Shown: one piece after another, positions 34,369 through 42,228 of the stretch
Layout: the number at the start of each line of letters is the position of its first letter
How positions within the stretch are numbered: position 1 is the stretch's first letter
The notes under the pieces: model-generated
What the model saw: only the letters and a program-made list of their open reading frames with translations
The model's database searches: none
What the model was told of the DNA's origin: nothing
Program-made: the position numbers and the translations under genes
DNA from: Sphaerobacter thermophilus DSM 20745
Lineage (GTDB): Bacteria; Chloroflexota; Chloroflexia; Thermomicrobiales; Thermomicrobiaceae
Assembly (NCBI RefSeq): GCF_000024985.1
Contig: NC_013523.1
Coordinates: 930,001 to 994,000 of the forward strand
Length of the DNA stretch: 64,000 bases
Reading direction: 5' to 3'

Positions 34369-34503
34369 TCTCTAGCATAGTCCGCGGCACGCTACTTGCC
34401 CTTAGGGTGTGTGAACGACGGTATTAGAGGCGCGTCGGCCGCTAATGGTCTGAGTGGCCGGGCCCGAGCATCATCGGGAAAACCTTGGAAGGGACTAGCA
34501 CAG

Positions 34504-35019
34504 ATGACCGTGCCACGCAACGCAGTAGCACCGGCGCAGCGAGGACGCCCCGTTCAGCGCACCAGCAGCTCCTCCAGCCTGGCGGACGTGCTCAATGTGA
34601 TCCTCGACAAGGGCATCGTGATCGATGCCTGGGCGCGCGTGTCGGTGGTCGGGATTGAGATCCTGACGATCGAAGCGCGTGTGGTCGTGGCGTCGATCGA
34701 TACGTACCTGCGCTATGCGGAGGCGATCGGCCTCACGGCGCTCGCGGCGGCTCCTGCGGAGCATGGAGCCCAATGGCAGCAGAATGGACGCGGCCCAGGA
34801 GGAGAGCGCCCATCCGAGGACGAGGTGTACGCATTCGTCGCTGAAAACCGGGGTGGTGTGAGGCTGGGCGAGCTGGAGGCCTACTTCGACGTATCACGGC
34901 AGGAACTGGAGGACATCGTCGACCGCCTGACTGAGGAAAATCGACTGCAACGGGACGAGGAGCGTCGGCTCTACTACGTTGCCGAAGAGAGTCAGATCGA
35001 GGCAGGTGGTAGCGACTAG
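34504..35019 (+). CDS. gvpA: Gas vesicle shell protein GvpA with winged-helix-like C-terminal extension
   Basis: A 171 aa protein. Residues 24-80 are a clear GvpA/J core: [19 protein letters not shown], then [22 protein letters not shown]. This forms the ribbed hydrophobic wall of the gas vesicle. After a Gly/Pro linker, residues 103-161 look like a winged helix: [55 protein letters not shown]. Typical GvpA is only 70-80 aa or has a simple tail, so this fusion is odd. GGAAGGG is 10 bases before ATG 34504. It is first in the gvp cluster. Confidence 0.88.
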
Positions 35020-35188: not shown

Positions 35189-35962
35189 GTGAACGTCGTT
35201 GCTGGCACCTACGTCTACTGCGTCAGCTCTGCCCAGTCGTTCGGCCAAGGCAGCCCAACGTTCACGACACCAGGCATCGGAGGTCATGGCGCGGTGGTGC
35301 GCATCATCGCGGAGGGAGACCTGGCGGCAGTCGTGAGTGATTCGGCGGCGGTGCACTACGACGTCAGCCGGGAGAATCTCCTGGCGCACCAGCGGGTGCT
35401 TGAAGAGGCGATGGCGCAGTCGGATATCCTCCCCGTCGCGTTCGGCACTGTCGCAGCGAACGACGACGAAGTGCGTGAGGCGCTCCTCCGGCGCGAGGCC
35501 GACCACCTGCACGCGAATCTCGACTACATCCGAGGCTGCGTCGAGCTCGCGCTCCGCGCACTCTGGCAGCCCGAGCGTCTCTTCGAGGAGATCGTCGCTG
35601 AAGACGACGAGATCCGCGCGCTGCGTGACGGCATCGCCAGCTACCCGGAGGCGGCTACGGAGTTCGATCGCATTCGGCTGGGCGAGCTGACTGAGTGGGT
35701 CATCAACGCGAAGAGCGACGTGGAAGCCGAAGCGATACTCGGCGAGCTGCAGCCGATTGCCGTGGACACGGTCCTGAACCCGATCGTCACGGAGATGATG
35801 ATCCTGAATGCAGCGTTCCTGGTGGAGCGGACAAGGGTTCCCGAGTTCGACGTGGCCGTTCAGGAGATCGGTGCATCTCATGCTGAGCGCCTGAGCTTCC
35901 AGTACGTCGGCCCGCTGCCGCCCTTCAATTTCGTCGATGCCAGCGTGAATTGGGAGGACTAG
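35189..35962 (+). CDS. gvpF: Gas vesicle protein GvpF/GvpL (first copy)
   Basis: A 257 aa protein of the GvpL/GvpF family, which bind GvpA and help nucleate vesicles. GTYVYCVSSA at the N-terminus, ILPVAFGTVAANDDEVREALL in the middle and YVGPLPPFNFVD at the end are the three family hallmarks. GTG 35189 has GGAGG 8 bases upstream. gvpG follows after 4 bases. F and L cannot be told apart from sequence alone. Confidence 0.88.
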   Translation: MNVVAGTYVYCVSSAQSFGQGSPTFTTPGIGGHGAVVRIIAEGDLAAVVSDSAAVHYDVSRENLLAHQRVLEEAMAQSDILPVAFGTVAANDDEVREALLRREADHLHANLDYIRGCVELALRALWQPERLFEEIVAEDDEIRALRDGIASYPEAATEFDRIRLGELTEWVINAKSDVEAEAILGELQPIAVDTVLNPIVTEMMILNAAFLVERTRVPEFDVAVQEIGASHAERLSFQYVGPLPPFNFVDASVNWED

Positions 35963-35966
35963 CCCA

Positions 35967-36251
35967 ATGGGCCTGCTCTCCGGCCTGTTGCTCTTTCCCA
36001 TTGCCGGGCCCGTTCGTGGGCTTCGGTTCGTGCTGGAGCAGATTCGTGAGGAGGCGGACGCGCAGTTGTTCGACGAGAACGCCGTACAGGCGGAGCTGAT
36101 GAGCCTCGACCTCCTCTACAGGCAGGGCGAGATCTCCGACGAGGAGTACGAAGCACGTGAGGCCGAGCTGTTCGACTACTTGAACGCCATCCGTGCGTCC
36201 AACGAGGGCCGTGGAGAAGGAGACGAATATTGGGAGGGTGACGCATGGTGA
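35967..36251 (+). CDS. gvpG: Gas vesicle protein GvpG
   Basis: A 94 aa helical protein with family pattern MGLLSGLLLFPIAGPVRGLRFV and LYRQGEISDEEYEAREAELFDYL. GvpG is a small accessory protein of vesicle assembly usually encoded beside gvpF/L, as here. It overlaps the next gvpF/L gene by 7 bases. Confidence 0.9.
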   Translation: MGLLSGLLLFPIAGPVRGLRFVLEQIREEADAQLFDENAVQAELMSLDLLYRQGEISDEEYEAREAELFDYLNAIRASNEGRGEGDEYWEGDAW

Positions 36252-37114
36252 CGGAGAGGTCTCAGAACGCACCGCAGCCGACACCAGAAGCAGGAGCGAC
36301 GGTGGGTGGCGACCGTGCCTGGTATCTCTATGGCGTCACCCGGTCTGACTCCTTGATCCACGACCTGCTCGAGCGGACACGTGCAGACGTGAGGGATGCA
36401 GGAGAAGCCCTGCAGGCGTTGATCTGCGGCGACCTGGCGGCGATCGTCCGACCGGTGTCGTCGGAGGAGTTCGGCCCCGAGCCACTTGAGAAGCACCTCC
36501 AGGATGTCGCGTGGCTGGAGGCGGTCGTCCGGGCGCACAACGATGTCATCGCTGTCTTCCATCGCGGCCGAGCCATCCTGCCCGCCAAGTTCGGATCTGT
36601 CTTCCGCTCGCAGGAGGATCTCCGAGCGGCACTGACGGAGGCACACGACGCCCTCGTCCGGCAGCTCGACCGCCTGACCGAATGCGACGAGTGGGCCATT
36701 CATCTCTACGTTGATCGGGATGTGGTGGAGCAACGCGTCGGCGAAACGTATCCGGAACTACAGCGGCTCAGGGAGGACGTGGAAACGGCACGTCCGGGCC
36801 GTGCATACCTGCTCCAGCGTCAACTCGATGCAGAACTCGCGTCGGCCACCGACGCGATGCTGAGCGACGTGGCCCTGGCGGCTTTCGAGCGTCTGCAACG
36901 GCACGCGGTTGCCGGTGAGACCACCTCTCCGGTGCGTGCCGATGACCCCGACGCCGAGATCCTGCGCGCGGCCTTCCTGGTCAGGCGTCATCATCTGCCG
37001 GCCTTCCTGTCCGAGGCAGACAGTATCACGGATTCAGGCACGGGCGTGCGCTGTGAGTACAGCGGCCCGTGGCCACCCTACAGCTTTGCAGCCCCCAGGG
37101 ACGAGGTACCGTGA
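36245..37114 (+). CDS. gvpL: Gas vesicle protein GvpF/GvpL (second copy)
   Basis: A 289 aa member of the GvpL/F family: WYLYGVTRSDS at the start after a 25-residue disordered lead, AILPAKFGSVFRSQEDLRAAL, an extended helical middle (VETARPGRAYLLQRQLD is the usual 'GRAYL' region) and YSGPWPPYSFAAP at the end. It is longer than the first copy. Its stop overlaps the start of the next gene by one base. Confidence 0.88.
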   Translation: MVTERSQNAPQPTPEAGATVGGDRAWYLYGVTRSDSLIHDLLERTRADVRDAGEALQALICGDLAAIVRPVSSEEFGPEPLEKHLQDVAWLEAVVRAHNDVIAVFHRGRAILPAKFGSVFRSQEDLRAALTEAHDALVRQLDRLTECDEWAIHLYVDRDVVEQRVGETYPELQRLREDVETARPGRAYLLQRQLDAELASATDAMLSDVALAAFERLQRHAVAGETTSPVRADDPDAEILRAAFLVRRHHLPAFLSEADSITDSGTGVRCEYSGPWPPYSFAAPRDEVP

Positions 37115-37335
37115 TGAGTAACGTCGTATCCGACACGCGCGAGGTGGGCCTGGTTGAACTACTGGACCGTGTCCTCGATCACGGGGTCATCCTGGTCGGG
37201 GACATCACCATCTCGGTGGCTGAGGTCGACCTCGTCTACCTCGGGCTCCGGGTCATGCTCTCCTCAGTCGAACGAGCCGATGAGTTACGTCGCAGCGCGG
37301 TGCCGTTGACCGCAGGCAAGGTGACTGATGTCTAG
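37114..37335 (+). CDS. Short GvpJ/GvpS-type shell-like protein
   Basis: A 73 aa member of the GvpA/J/M/S superfamily: GLVELLDRVLDHGVILVGDITISVAEVDLVYLGLRVMLSSV. The 'GD-ITISVAEVDL' version rather than 'DAWxRVSxVGIE' marks a minor shell protein (J/S-type), thought to act in nucleation or tips. ATG 37114 overlaps the upstream stop, and its own end overlaps the next gvpF/L gene by 8 bases. Confidence 0.82.
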   Translation: MSNVVSDTREVGLVELLDRVLDHGVILVGDITISVAEVDLVYLGLRVMLSSVERADELRRSAVPLTAGKVTDV

Positions 37336-38086
37336 CGCTCGCTACGTGTACGCCATTCTCCCACGCGATGCGCATCCGCCGGCCGGGCTGACCGGATGGG
37401 GCGGCACTCCTCTGACCACTGTGACCTGGTGCGACCTCGCGGGGATGACGAGCGCCGTCAGCCCGGGCGAACCGCAGCCGACACCGGACAACGTGCTGCG
37501 CCACGCGGCAATCGTCGAGCGACTGCGCGAGGTCGGGCCAATCCTGCCTGTACGTTTTGGGACCGTGCTCCGCGATGGTGACGCGGTCAAGGAGGCGCTT
37601 GCCCAGCGCTGTCACGTGCTGGTCGCCGATCTGGAGCGGTTGGGCTCCAAGATCGAGCTCGGCCTCACGGTGTTGTGGGATCCGCCCGACGTGACCAGCG
37701 AGGAAGTCGCGAGCGAGCGCCATGCTGGGAGCGGCGATGGAACGCGCTATCTCCAGGCGCGGCTCGTCGAGCAGCGCCGTGAGGCAGTGCTACGGCGCAA
37801 CGCCGGGAAAGTCGTGAGGGAACTGGAAACTGCGCTCGACCCCCATGTGCTGGAGCAGCACAGCACAATTCTTCCAACTCCCCGGCTGCTGCTGCGCGCG
37901 GCGTATCTTGTGGACCCCGCGCGAATCGGGTCGTTTCAGGACACGCTTGGAACGCTGCGCGCGAACCACCCTGAGCTGCGCTTCCTGCTGAGCGGTCCCT
38001 GGCCTCCGTACAGCTTCGTCTCGCAACCCAGCGAGGCTGACCAGGTGCACCCGACGAGACGAGGCCGGAGGGCAGAGCCCATGTGA
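37328..38086 (+). CDS. Gas vesicle protein GvpF/GvpL (third copy)
   Basis: A 252 aa GvpL/F family protein: RYVYAILPRDAHPP, ILPVRFGTVLRDGDAVKEAL, a 'GTRYLQARLVEQRREA' helical region and LLSGPWPPYSF. Three different F/L proteins in one operon suggest heteromeric assembly factors. It is followed by a 94-base gap before the next gene. Confidence 0.87.
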   Translation: MSSARYVYAILPRDAHPPAGLTGWGGTPLTTVTWCDLAGMTSAVSPGEPQPTPDNVLRHAAIVERLREVGPILPVRFGTVLRDGDAVKEALAQRCHVLVADLERLGSKIELGLTVLWDPPDVTSEEVASERHAGSGDGTRYLQARLVEQRREAVLRRNAGKVVRELETALDPHVLEQHSTILPTPRLLLRAAYLVDPARIGSFQDTLGTLRANHPELRFLLSGPWPPYSFVSQPSEADQVHPTRRGRRAEPM

Positions 38087-38180: not shown

Positions 38181-38660
38181 ATGAGTTCATCGGACAAGGA
38201 ACGCAACCAACGCGCGAATGATGAGAAGGCCGATCGCGAGTCTTCGGCGTCCCAGGCGTCAGGCCGCCGTCAGAGCCGGGCTGCATCGAAGCGCCAAACC
38301 CAGGAGACCAAACAGCGGACTGGGAAGGCGGCGGACGAGCGTCAGCGGGAAGAGCAAGCAGCCGGCAACGACGATCGTCGGTCCACTCAGGCTGGTCGCC
38401 GACCTGTCGCGAATGGGCAGGTCTTTGATCCGAGTGCCGCAATCAAAGTCGAGCGTCTGCGGCTCGTACGGCGCTGGAGAGAGGCTGGGCTCACATACTC
38501 GGCGATCTACGCCTACAGCCAGGTCATGGAACGCTATCCGTGCACAGGTGCCTCCAGAGCCGCCGCCGAGGAACTCCTGGAAATGGCGAAGGAACAGCTC
38601 GACGAGGATCGGTACTACACCGCCCTCGGCATCTTCAATCGGCTCGAGGAGCTGGCATGA
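38181..38660 (+). CDS. Unknown gvp-cluster protein, disordered N-terminus and TPR-like C-terminus
   Basis: A 159 aa protein of no recognised Gvp family. Residues 1-80 are charged and low-complexity (Ser/Gln/Arg/Asp). Residues 90-159 are helical, with a tetratricopeptide-like pattern: LTYSAIYAYSQVMERYP, then AAAEELLEMAKEQLDEDRYYTALGIF. The stop overlaps the gvpK start (ATGA), so it is translated with gvpK. An adaptor or scaffold role in vesicle assembly is an inference from position. Confidence 0.7.
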   Translation: MSSSDKERNQRANDEKADRESSASQASGRRQSRAASKRQTQETKQRTGKAADERQREEQAAGNDDRRSTQAGRRPVANGQVFDPSAAIKVERLRLVRRWREAGLTYSAIYAYSQVMERYPCTGASRAAAEELLEMAKEQLDEDRYYTALGIFNRLEELA

Positions 38661-39124
38661 CGCTCCACTCCGGGAAGAGTGACGACGTGGACTCGGTCAC
38701 GCGCGAGCCTCTGCCGCCGATCGACGAGCGGTTGAGCGGGGACCTTGAAGCGCTGGACCATTTCGCTCGCGAGCTGTCGCAGCTCAGGACTTCAGGACGG
38801 GCTCAAACCGTTCCGAGCACTGATCGACAGGTCAGCGGCGCAGGGATGATGCCGGATCGGATCGATGCGGACCCCGAAACCGCTGAGCAGGGCCTGGCAA
38901 AGCTCGTCCTTACCTTAGTCGACATCCTCCGTCAGGTGCTCGAAAAGCAGGCGATTCGACGCATGGAGGCCGGATCGCTCAGCGAGGCGGAGATCGAGCG
39001 GTTGGGTGAGACGTTCCTGAGGCTCAACCAGAAGCTGGACGAGCTCAAGGCCGCGTTCGGACTCGAAGATGACGATCTCAGGCTGAATCTCGGTCCGATC
39101 CGGGACCTGCTGTCGGAACCGTAA
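38657..39124 (+). CDS. gvpK: Gas vesicle protein GvpK
   Basis: A 155 aa protein. The C-terminal two thirds match GvpK: RIDADPETAEQGLAKLVLTL, LEKQAIRRMEAGSLSEAEIE, GLEDDDLRLNLGPIRDLL. The N-terminal 65 residues are variable. GvpK is one of the conserved assembly proteins of most gvp clusters. ATG 38657 overlaps the previous stop. Confidence 0.93.
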   Translation: MTLHSGKSDDVDSVTREPLPPIDERLSGDLEALDHFARELSQLRTSGRAQTVPSTDRQVSGAGMMPDRIDADPETAEQGLAKLVLTLVDILRQVLEKQAIRRMEAGSLSEAEIERLGETFLRLNQKLDELKAAFGLEDDDLRLNLGPIRDLLSEP

Positions 39125-39192: not shown

Positions 39193-39612
39193 ATGAGTAG
39201 CAGCGGCGATCGCCCAGCCATCACTCGACACCAGGACTCACCCTATCGTCCACGCCCTGGCAGTCCACGGGCTGCTGCCGGCGTCCAACCGACCAACCTG
39301 GCCGATCTCCTCGAGCGCGTGCTGGACAAGGGAATCGTGGTCGCCGGTGACATCACGCTGTCTCTTGGTACCGTCGAGGTCCTCTCGCTCAAGATCCGAC
39401 TGCTGATTGCGTCGATCGACAAGGCCCAGGAGATCGGCATCAACTGGTGGCAGTTTGATCCTGCACTTTCCTCGAACGCCAGGACACCCGAACTCGAGGC
39501 CAATGGGCTGGGCGAACGGCTCGACCGCATCGAAGCGCAGCTCGCCGCGCTCGCACGACAACCGAGCGAAGAGCCCGCCGAATCGCGAAACGCGGGTCCC
39601 GGCGAGGCATGA
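39193..39612 (+). CDS. gvpJ: GvpJ-type minor shell protein with C-terminal coiled coil
   Basis: A 139 aa protein. The core at 34-90 is NLADLLERVLDKGIVVAGDITLSLGTVEVLSLKIRLLIAS cut into recognisable J-type motifs, ending in INWWQFDP. Residues 103-125 (LGERLDRIEAQLAALARQ) look like a short coiled coil. GvpJ proteins are low-abundance wall or tip components. It belongs to the same transcription unit as gvpK, 68 bases away. Confidence 0.85.
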   Translation: MSSSGDRPAITRHQDSPYRPRPGSPRAAAGVQPTNLADLLERVLDKGIVVAGDITLSLGTVEVLSLKIRLLIASIDKAQEIGINWWQFDPALSSNARTPELEANGLGERLDRIEAQLAALARQPSEEPAESRNAGPGEA

Positions 39613-39730
39613 AACGTGCGTTTTGCGTAGCAGTTGCCAGCCAAGATATCCGCAGAGCGCTCGCTAGACCGCTTTCTCGATCCTGGTGCGGAGGACCTCG
39701 GCTGGTCGAGTCGCTCGAGGAGTACGGGAC

Positions 39731-40327
39731 ATGGAAGACGTGGAGATCGACGAGCAACCCCGAAGCGATGGTGAGTCGCAGGCATCGTCGAGCAGTGCGC
39801 AACGCACAGACGGCCCGGATGAGCATGAAGAGAGCGCGGATGTGGGACGATCAGACGGACAGACAGGCGCAACCGCTGAGACGGGCGTGAGCCCGTCGCT
39901 TCAGGAGCAGATCGCTCAGGCGATCCAGCCGATAGTGACCGACCTCCGCCAGCAGATTGCTCAGACCCTGCAACAGCAGATGCAACAGCCGTCGGAGCAA
40001 GGGCAGGAGCCTGGGGAACAGGCTGGCGGTGGACTACAGGCTGCGCTCGCGCAGACGGCTCAGGCGATACAGCAGGCGTTCGCCTGGGTGCGGCAGATGG
40101 CAACGACCATCATCGAAACCGTACGTGAGTGGATCGAGAAGGTCATCGCAGCCATTCGCCGTCTCGCCCTGTCGGCAGTGGCGCAGGGCATCAAGGCTGC
40201 GGCCAAACCGCTCTTGAAGACGGCTGTGAACAAGGGTGCTGGAATGGTCCAGGACCAAGGCAAGCAGCGGCTGGAAGCGCTGCGCCAGCGACGGCCCGAC
40301 GCCGAGCAGGCGACGGCCGCAGGCTAG
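39731..40327 (+). CDS. Gln-rich helical gvp-cluster protein with QP motif (1)
   Basis: A 198 aa unrecognised protein. The acidic, disordered first 55 residues are followed by LQEQIAQAIQPIVTDLRQQI (57-76), which aligns without gaps to the next two proteins. A Gln-rich stretch follows, then a long amphipathic and hydrophobic helix region (about 105-170: AFAWVRQMATTIIETVREWI, RLALSAVAQGIKAAAKPLL). It could coat the hydrophobic vesicle surface or a membrane. That is inferred from composition and place. The 118-base gap before it has no gene. Confidence 0.7.
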   Translation: MEDVEIDEQPRSDGESQASSSSAQRTDGPDEHEESADVGRSDGQTGATAETGVSPSLQEQIAQAIQPIVTDLRQQIAQTLQQQMQQPSEQGQEPGEQAGGGLQAALAQTAQAIQQAFAWVRQMATTIIETVREWIEKVIAAIRRLALSAVAQGIKAAAKPLLKTAVNKGAGMVQDQGKQRLEALRQRRPDAEQATAAG

Positions 40328-40400
40328 TCCAGGGTCCGTCGGTCCGGTAGCAGTGGACGTTCGTCCGCTGTTGTAACCCCCTTTCTGCGAGGAGAATGCT

Positions 40401-41501
40401 GTGATCGGTGGCCTGGACAAACAATCGCAGGAGCCGCGACGTCGGCACGTCCAGGCGCCAGGGACGAATCCCGGTGACCAGTCGGAGGGCGCTCCAGCGA
40501 GCGACAAACGGCTTGAGCAGCGGATTGCCGAGGCGATCCAGCCGGTCCTGCCACGTGTGCAGGAGCAGGCGGTTCAGGCATTGCATGCTCAGCTCCAGGA
40601 GTCCTTTCAGCCCGGCACCACGCCTAGCGAACAGAAACCCGCCGACAACGGAAATGGCACCGGGACGGTCGGGACCATCGTTCGACCGCTCGTGTCGACC
40701 ATTCCCGAGGTCCTGCGTGAGCAAGGGGAGCAGCCACTGCGCTCGCTGGTTCTCGATGCGCTGGACACGATCTTCTCTGACTCGGTACGTGCGAGGTTCC
40801 AGCACGATGCCGAATCGACGCTCCGCGAGCTGGTCGACATCACCCTCGAGGTCATTCCGGATACGGAGAGTCGGGATGATCTCAGGATGCACTTGCAGCG
40901 GACGCTCGATGAGCTATTACAGGAGACGCTGGACCAGATCTTCTCAGGTCCGCTGCGAGCCGACATAGAGGGCCATGCAGAGCGTGCCATCGATGCCTTG
41001 GTCGCCGGTGACAGTGCCGAGGCCGTCCGGCAGAGCAAGCTCGTCGTCCTGACGCTGGTCCACGATTTCTCCGCCGTACTGCAGGAGCACTGGCACCAGG
41101 TGCTGCGACTCCTCCTTAGGGTCGTCACAGCGGCGCTGCAGGAAGTCGTCACCTCAGCGATCAAGAAAGGACTTGAGTCCGTCGTGGCTGAGCCCGCTGA
41201 AGAGCTGGCTGAACAAGCGGATAGTGTGCAGGATCGGCTGCAGGAGAAGGGTGAGGAGCTCCGGGACGAACTCAAGCGCGCTGTCGAAGCCTTACGCGAG
41301 CTCATCGAAGAGGGCACGGAGGAACTGCAGGAGCGTATTCAGGAATCAGTACGCTCGTCAGTCACCGGCCAGGGGCGTCCACGAGGCGGCTTCGGTCATC
41401 CTCCCTCCGGCCGGCCACCGTCCGGCCGGCCACCCTCGGGAAGGCCACCGTCCGGGCGCGCTCCAAGGGGGCCACGAGCGATCGCCCCACCATCACGGTG
41501 A
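40401..41501 (+). CDS. Helical gvp-cluster protein with QP motif and PPSGR repeats (2)
   Basis: A 366 aa unrecognised protein. After a basic start comes LEQRIAEAIQPVLPRVQEQA (38-57), the motif shared with its neighbours. Residues 90-320 are almost wholly helical, with hydrophobic stretches (KLVVLTLVHDFSAVL, VLRLLLRVVTAALQEVVTSA) and a charged coiled-coil-like part (DRLQEKGEELRDELKRAVEAL). The tail carries four PPSGR repeats and a basic end. GTG 40401 follows GCGAGGAGAA. It is probably structural. Confidence 0.7.
   Translation: MIGGLDKQSQEPRRRHVQAPGTNPGDQSEGAPASDKRLEQRIAEAIQPVLPRVQEQAVQALHAQLQESFQPGTTPSEQKPADNGNGTGTVGTIVRPLVSTIPEVLREQGEQPLRSLVLDALDTIFSDSVRARFQHDAESTLRELVDITLEVIPDTESRDDLRMHLQRTLDELLQETLDQIFSGPLRADIEGHAERAIDALVAGDSAEAVRQSKLVVLTLVHDFSAVLQEHWHQVLRLLLRVVTAALQEVVTSAIKKGLESVVAEPAEELAEQADSVQDRLQEKGEELRDELKRAVEALRELIEEGTEELQERIQESVRSSVTGQGRPRGGFGHPPSGRPPSGRPPSGRPPSGRAPRGPRAIAPPSR
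41400..41459 (+). repeat. Four 15-base units encoding PPSGR
   Basis: Consecutive codons spell PPSGR four times. Third bases differ between units (for example TCC GGC CGG against TCG GGA AGG), so the repeat is kept at protein level rather than recently copied. Confidence 0.9.
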
Positions 41502-41676
41502 TCGTCGGATTGACGCGTGGCTCTGGCCTCTTGCATGCCCAGGACAACCGCTCGGGATGCTCGTGACTAGAGTGTATGCCCGTTCGTACCAGCGGGGACT
41601 GACTGCGCGAGGTGCCCAGACAGATGCCGCACACGGCGTCATCATGTTCGGAGCGGCTGAATGAAAGGAGAGGCCG

Positions 41677-42228
41677 ATGCCCGAGCAGACCCAGTCGGAG
41701 CAGGAGCCCCAGGAGCAACAGCAACTCGAAGGCAACGCGGAGGAGCAGTCCAGCGACGCAAAGGCGGAGCGGAAGAGCGGGACCAGCCGCAAGCGGAAGA
41801 GCAACCAGAAGAAGACGAAGTCGGCCCAGCCTGAGGCAGAAGAGCGCGCTGAGGCTCAGCCGGAGCCTGAGGCTGCGACGTCGCCGCAGAGTGACCAGGA
41901 CCTTGGTCAAGGGTTGCAGGACCAGATTTCGCAAGCCGTTCAGCCGGCGCTAGAGCAGGCTCAAGCGCTCGTCTTGGAGGCAGTGCAGCAGCAGGTCGAC
42001 CAGGCGCTGGAACCGGTTCGGCAGGAGTTGCAGCAGCAAGTCGACCAGGCGCTGGAGCCGGTCCGGCAAGCAATCCTCCAACAGGTCGAGCAGCAAGTCG
42101 ACCAGGCCCTGGAACCGGTCCGGAAGCAGGTACAGGAGCAAGTCGATCAGGCTCTCGAGCCCTTGCGGCAGGAGCTGCTGCGCCAGGTGGAGGAAGCGGT
42201 GCGCACCTCATTTCAAGCAGGGCGGTGA
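41677..42228 (+). CDS. Gln-rich repeat protein of the gvp cluster with QP motif (3)
   Basis: A 183 aa unrecognised protein. The first 75 residues are disordered (acidic, then basic, with Arg/Lys/Ser). From residue 80 it is one amphipathic helical array: ISQAVQP (84-90) followed by four VDQALEP[VL]R units at 107, 122, 141 and 156, spaced 15, 19 and 15. The first part aligns with the two preceding proteins. Helical Gln-rich repeats recall GvpC-type coat proteins by character only, with no sequence match to known GvpC. GAAAGGAGAGG precedes the ATG. Confidence 0.75.
   Translation: MPEQTQSEQEPQEQQQLEGNAEEQSSDAKAERKSGTSRKRKSNQKKTKSAQPEAEERAEAQPEPEAATSPQSDQDLGQGLQDQISQAVQPALEQAQALVLEAVQQQVDQALEPVRQELQQQVDQALEPVRQAILQQVEQQVDQALEPVRKQVQEQVDQALEPLRQELLRQVEEAVRTSFQAGR
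41995..42168 (+). repeat. Four coding repeats, VDQALEP[VL]R units
   Basis: Four imperfect 27-base units starting at 41995, 42040, 42097 and 42142 (for example GTCGACCAGGCGCTGGAACC). The first three are nearly identical in DNA and the fourth has diverged, pointing to fairly recent duplication of the first three. Confidence 0.85.

Follow-up and report, generated by a model that had tools for sequence, protein, structure and literature searches.

A predicted two-TPR protein of Chloroflexota gas-vesicle gene clusters

The window analysed here, a stretch of 64,000 nucleotides from the genome of Sphaerobacter thermophilus DSM 20745, contains a gas-vesicle (gvp) gene cluster in which a gene for a 159-residue protein (positions 38,181–38,660, + strand) lies directly upstream of gvpK. 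Relatives of this protein match the TPR_6 family, and AlphaFold predicts helices in its residues 84–158. In the Chloroflexota genomes that we searched, the family appears from its sequences to be linked to gas vesicles and confined to gvp clusters. The sequence-only reading of this DNA had taken the protein for a dedicated partner or chaperone of GvpK. The results described below led us to a broader proposal: the TPR protein probably helps gas-vesicle proteins to meet during assembly, not necessarily as a dedicated GvpK partner.

All genes of the cluster in the window are encoded on the + strand. A GvpA-domain protein stands at its head (34,396–35,019; Pfam Gas_vesicle, E 3.9e-14; NCBIfam GvpA, 4e-34), followed by a gvpF/L paralogue (35,189–35,962; Pfam GvpL_GvpF, 3.8e-72), gvpG (35,967–36,251; Pfam GvpG, 7.4e-22), a second gvpF/L paralogue (36,245–37,114; 5e-59), a GvpA-family protein that is GvpJ/S-like by position only (37,069–37,335; Pfam Gas_vesicle, 5.6e-15), and a gvpF/L paralogue directly upstream of the TPR gene (37,328–38,086; 9.8e-56). 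Downstream of the TPR gene are gvpK (38,657–39,124; Pfam GvpK, 1.7e-33) and another GvpA-family gene (39,193–39,612; Pfam Gas_vesicle, 2.3e-14). Three GvpF/L paralogues are thus present within 35,189–38,086. The protein at the head of the cluster has a C-terminal extension, which may be a winged helix (Pfam MarR_2, E 0.022, below the cut-off), and its relatives also head the clusters of two other genomes, G016 and G307 (the G numbers are our labels for genomes).

The G+C content by codon position of the open reading frame at 38,181–38,660 fits a coding sequence, with a weaker signal in the N-terminal half (0.70/0.57/0.66) than in the C-terminal half (0.66/0.44/0.73; 0.71/0.41/0.77 in GvpK for comparison). 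GAGGAG is found 5' of the ATG at 38,181 and also just 5' of gvpK. Only a single copy of the gene occurs in the Sphaerobacter genome (3,993,764 bases, 2 contigs), the next matches having E values of 0.06 and 1.0. The N-terminal half (residues 1–80; 38,181–38,420, + strand) is charged, of low complexity and lineage-specific, with 19 K/R and 13 D/E residues. Since only two of its 80 residues are V, I, L, M, F, W, or Y, it has no signal-peptide core. AlphaFold places one helix at residues 3–60 with low confidence (block pLDDT 44–79), and on this model the half is likely to be disordered. The charged, disordered half of the sequence-only reading therefore stood as regards charge, is likely as regards disorder, and is true of the window protein but not of the family: a charged N-terminal half is present in two of the 10 homologues, the window protein and that of G016 (149 residues), and the other eight (83 to about 102 residues) start near the repeats.

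The helical repeats read from the sequence in the C-terminal half (residues 84–158; 38,430–38,654, + strand) were borne out by prediction. AlphaFold gave four helices (84–101, 105–118, 123–141, and 145–158; pLDDT about 95) and no strand in a run of the full protein that used three sequences, and the identical four helices were obtained with the C-terminal half alone (mean pLDDT 91.6, pTM 0.80). The window protein alone matched no TPR model at E 1, no family above the cut-off in Pfam or NCBIfam, and nothing in PHROGs, and a sequence search of the PDB gave nothing better than E 0.02. The aligned relatives share a common core of approximately 74 residues with the pattern GxxxxAxxxYxxxxxxYP, and seven of the eight aligned members matched both Pfam TPR_6 and NCBIfam tol_pal_ybgF, with best E values of 3.5e-9 and 5.3e-9 and listing limits of E 1 and E 0.1, respectively. 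The family profile also matched solved TPR proteins, CpoB and YbgF. In leave-one-out scoring against the profile, the 10 members of the family reached 68 to 95 bits, indicating that their relatedness is beyond chance. In the structural comparisons, VIA-align returned designed helical repeats and TPR proteins in its best 50 rows, with Z scores of 7.5–10.7, a range that the program itself describes as common for helical folds (for example, 9.8 for IFIT TPR proteins and 7.7–8.2 for BamD or YbbN). Foldseek against the PDB found no significant fold match (E all above 0.2), its best matches being mostly TPR proteins, and the fold assignment thus rests on the family profile and the AlphaFold model, which together support two TPR hairpins in the C-terminal half. 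As far as profiles and modelling reach, we consider it extremely improbable that the protein is instead a MerR-type DNA-binding regulator. The window protein by itself does weakly match Pfam MerR-DNA-bind (E 0.086) and NCBIfam MerR (E 0.011), but the scores are far from the cut-offs (13.9 versus 25.4 bits in Pfam and 15.9 versus 150.85 bits in NCBIfam), it is the only one of the eight members to do so whereas seven match TPR models, and the modelled C-terminal half consists of four helices without a strand.

The repeats resemble the TPR_6 and YbgF (CpoB)–BamD repeats (PF13174, TIGR02795) in the two helical hairpins, in the sequence pattern, and in the profile matches. The family differs from them in being a stand-alone domain of approximately 75 residues inside gvp clusters, and the match to BamD and CpoB (YbgF) covers the repeat region only. 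MamA of magnetosomes is also a TPR protein of a bacterial organelle, but the likeness seen here goes no further than the shared TPR fold: the structural match was not significant (Foldseek E 0.46), and one family member weakly matched the NCBIfam model of MamA (0.045). In MamA the repeats are more numerous, and the protein forms a coat by self-assembly.

The fold itself is an old one, and it is as an accessory gvp gene that the TPR gene is new, as far as we searched. The view that it is not named among the Gvp families was upheld by the matches listed: no Gvp model was among the Pfam and NCBIfam matches of the window protein at E 1, nor among 25 of the 29 Pfam families or the 18 NCBIfam families listed for eight members. 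The scans of the window met the models Gas_vesicle, GvpL_GvpF, GvpG, GvpK, GvpA, GvpJ, GvpM, and GvpQ. In the openly licensed literature we found no TPR protein in gvp clusters; PMC2963123 makes no mention of tetratrico, TPR, or Sphaerobacter, and PMC11445434 makes none of tetratrico.

Among 400 Chloroflexota genomes, the family comprises 10 proteins in nine genomes with eight family codes. The sequence-only reading had named homologues lying mostly away from gvp clusters as the finding that would speak against it; all 10 homologues sit within gvp clusters. GvpK was found in 52 of the 400 genomes, including all nine with the TPR gene, so that the gene is present in nine of 52 GvpK-positive genomes and clearly in none of the 348 GvpK-negative genomes (Fisher p 5.6e-9). 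The profile sequences came from seven of the nine positive genomes, and p becomes 0.013 when only the other two, G011 and G170, are counted; both values treat related genomes as independent and serve as a guide only. No copy was detected in 43 of the 52 GvpK-positive genomes. Of nine genomes covered in the window's own family, none contained GvpK or, by profile, the TPR gene; one of them, G359, gave a weak match containing a stop (E 0.007) in the single-protein search.

The single-protein search of the 400 genomes yielded 24 rows, of which eight were kept (the window, G016, G169, G081, G314, G170, G307, and G015). The 16 dropped rows (E 5.1e-4 to 0.0087) came from 15 genomes, 13 GvpK-negative and two GvpK-positive (G171 and G250, in which they lie on contigs other than those with gvpK). 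Several of them align mainly to the low-complexity N-terminal half or contain stops, and none was recovered by the profile search at 1e-6. No gvp match was observed within about 1.5 kb of the dropped rows, a short flank, given that the G170 homologue looked non-gvp at this distance and was placed in a gvp cluster by longer sequence. The profile search matched 11 genomes, of which nine were counted. The matches in the GvpK-negative G047 (9.6e-9) and G046 (7.7e-7) are part of long open frames (796 and 866 residues), which we took to encode generic TPR proteins and left out; with them included, the family would be present in two of 348 GvpK-negative genomes. Among the rows shown, 9 of up to 77 candidates per genome were scored in the single-protein search and 14 of up to 77 in the profile search, so that absence here means not detected and is no proof; all candidates were scored for the 47 genomes of the class of G307. 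No further homologue was found in the classes of G307 (47 genomes), G016 (7), and G011 (1), or in a second draw from the phylum around G081 (369 genomes, largely overlapping the first). Beyond Chloroflexota, eight plasmid-borne gvp clusters were all negative for the family, with 7.7 bits as the best score. A scan of genome contigs was sensitive to near copies only, and single-protein scans of viral contigs and plasmids gave nothing useful.

A patchy distribution of this kind, together with fast evolution, would also be expected of a neutral passenger, in which case a generic TPR gene would have entered gvp clusters by drift without taking on a role in gas vesicles. We regard this as very unlikely, on the grounds that the gene is kept in the gvp clusters of nine genomes with eight family codes in two kinds of position, that it has undergone a tandem duplication in one genome, and that the family is not clearly seen outside gvp clusters.

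The first kind of position is that of the window. In six genomes (the window, G016, G169, G081, G314, and G307), the gene order is gvpF/L, gvpJ, gvpF/L, the TPR gene, and gvpK. The overlap between the stop of the TPR gene and the start of gvpK, which the sequence-only reading had correctly pointed out in the window (4 nt, ATGA), recurs in all six of these loci, representing five family codes. The overlapped codon, ATG or GTG, stands at the beginning of the GvpK frame and was assumed to be the true gvpK start; four of the six loci have another in-frame start further in. In a quick tree of GvpK (84 columns), the six adjacent loci and G196 form one side of a branch with an SH-aLRT value of 91. 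These two observations favour the idea of a partner or chaperone dedicated to GvpK, whose TPR domain would bind nascent GvpK and for which the overlap would ensure paired synthesis. However, an identical 4-nt overlap with a different upstream gvp gene was found in nine of the other 46 gvpK loci, by a count that chose the start nearest to the upstream stop, which favours overlap, and in which eight of the 46 loci had no usable start or upstream gene. The overlap is therefore a mark of a compact operon, not of a special partnership. In addition, the TPR gene does not adjoin gvpK in three of the nine genomes, which show the second kind of position. In G015 and G011 it is preceded by gvpG, and gvpK is about 8 kb away; in G170 it comes after an ArsA-like ATPase gene on the downstream side of gvpG, and gvpK is on a different contig. 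Together with the 43 GvpK genomes without a detected copy, these findings led us to give up the dedicated partnership of the sequence-only reading as the preferred explanation and to consider it unlikely. G196 itself has no detected TPR copy although all its candidates were scored and its GvpK belongs to the group of the adjacent loci. The mean identity among the six loci is 39% (range 27–62) for the TPR core versus 73% (range 60–79) for the GvpK domain; the faster divergence of the core is in keeping with an accessory protein and argues against a tightly conserved one-to-one interface with GvpK, while leaving room for one.

Two of the three non-adjacent loci have further features. G015 carries two tandem TPR copies after gvpG (L028, 10,966–11,645), which overlap each other by ATGA. 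In G170 (L027, 4,112–6,106 and 8,639–9,397), the ArsA-like ATPase gene lies 5' of the TPR gene, and approximately 2.3 kb downstream of the latter a frame of 253 residues encodes another TPR protein, which is longer and scores 12.8 bits against the family profile.

The neighbourhood of the gene raises a further explanation, namely that the protein is a partner of GvpF/L- or GvpA-type proteins, for instance guarding a hydrophobic GvpA-family protein in the manner of small TPR co-chaperones, and that adjacency to gvpK is incidental. Upstream of the TPR gene, the first gvp gene met is gvpF/L in six genomes and gvpG, itself after gvpF/L, in the other three, and two members weakly match the LcrH_SycD chaperone model (best 0.021). 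Nevertheless, gvpF/L is present in nearly all clusters drawn, so that this nearness says little, and most gvpF/L clusters have no TPR gene. We judge this explanation to be as improbable as the dedicated GvpK partnership.

The reading that we favour, with somewhat better than even confidence, is that the protein is a two-TPR adaptor, soluble and optional, which acts early in gas-vesicle assembly and most likely contacts the group of GvpF/L, GvpJ, and GvpK. It is described as optional because most gvpK clusters have no detected copy. The two C-terminal hairpins would offer another Gvp protein a small groove or edge to bind to, although a classical TPR groove is built from more than two repeats, which counts against an adaptor. 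The many GvpK-positive genomes without a detected copy, G196 among them, the three genomes in which the gene follows gvpG, the fast divergence of the core, and the lack of a significant Foldseek match weigh against it as well. The gene order places the TPR gene together with those of GvpF/L, the GvpJ-like protein, and GvpK, and they are probably transcribed jointly. The adaptor would then most likely hold these three proteins together or stop one of them from aggregating, and it would do so early, during seeding and ahead of the growth of the GvpA shell. The charged N-terminal half, found in the window protein and one relative only, might serve as a flexible tether or make a weak electrostatic contact.

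Published interaction studies provide a setting for this adaptor. With the operon of B. megaterium, contact between GvpA2 and GvpL requires GvpS, GvpK, and GvpJ, for which a seeding role was proposed (PMC11445434). In haloarchaea, GvpL attracts every other accessory Gvp, and GvpK bound only GvpL in split-GFP assays (PMC7688916). Haloarchaeal GvpI and GvpH are likewise small accessory proteins that are non-essential and yet alter the vesicles, GvpI has a basic N-terminus (PMC7688916), and the gene of GvpI lies upstream of gvpJ–gvpK, comparable to the TPR gene upstream of gvpK. No homology to them was found when the family profile was searched against the Gvps of H. salinarum (GvpI, −0.6 bits); at E 1000, six of seven Gvps were listed, with 0.4 bits as the best score and GvpH unlisted. 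GvpV, GvpW, GvpX, GvpY, and GvpZ of Serratia may also be counted among the closest known systems. A more specific version of our proposal, which we put forward tentatively and regard as possible but doubtful, is that the TPR proteins constitute an unnamed Gvp family of minimal two-TPR adaptors that link GvpL/F to GvpK and GvpJ within the complex seeding the gas vesicles of Chloroflexota, a role perhaps filled in haloarchaea by unrelated small proteins such as GvpH and GvpI.

Seeding is described in PMC11445434 as the least understood step of gas-vesicle assembly, and GvpK as essential in the systems studied, yet of unknown role. A small protein that is restricted to gvp clusters and in many cases coupled to gvpK would offer a convenient handle on this step and may extend the set of parts available for gas-vesicle engineering. 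Should it do no more than buffer expression, the result would be a minor annotation.

A scheme like that of Get4 and Get3 was also considered, in which the TPR protein would serve an ArsA-like ATPase as its adaptor, with hydrophobic GvpA as the client. This idea was rejected as a general one because, within the stretches fetched, ArsA-like genes are near only two of the nine TPR-positive clusters and are also near four TPR-negative clusters (two of these genes being about half-size); none is present in the window.

Downstream of the last GvpA-family gene in the window are three Gln/Glu-rich open reading frames (39,686–42,228), whose products are probably helical; the third contains tandem repeats of 45, 57, and 102 bases. 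Proteins resembling these are encoded after the gvp clusters in G016 and G307 and on the flanks of the G196 cluster, although low complexity may inflate the match. These open reading frames may encode GvpC-like shell proteins.
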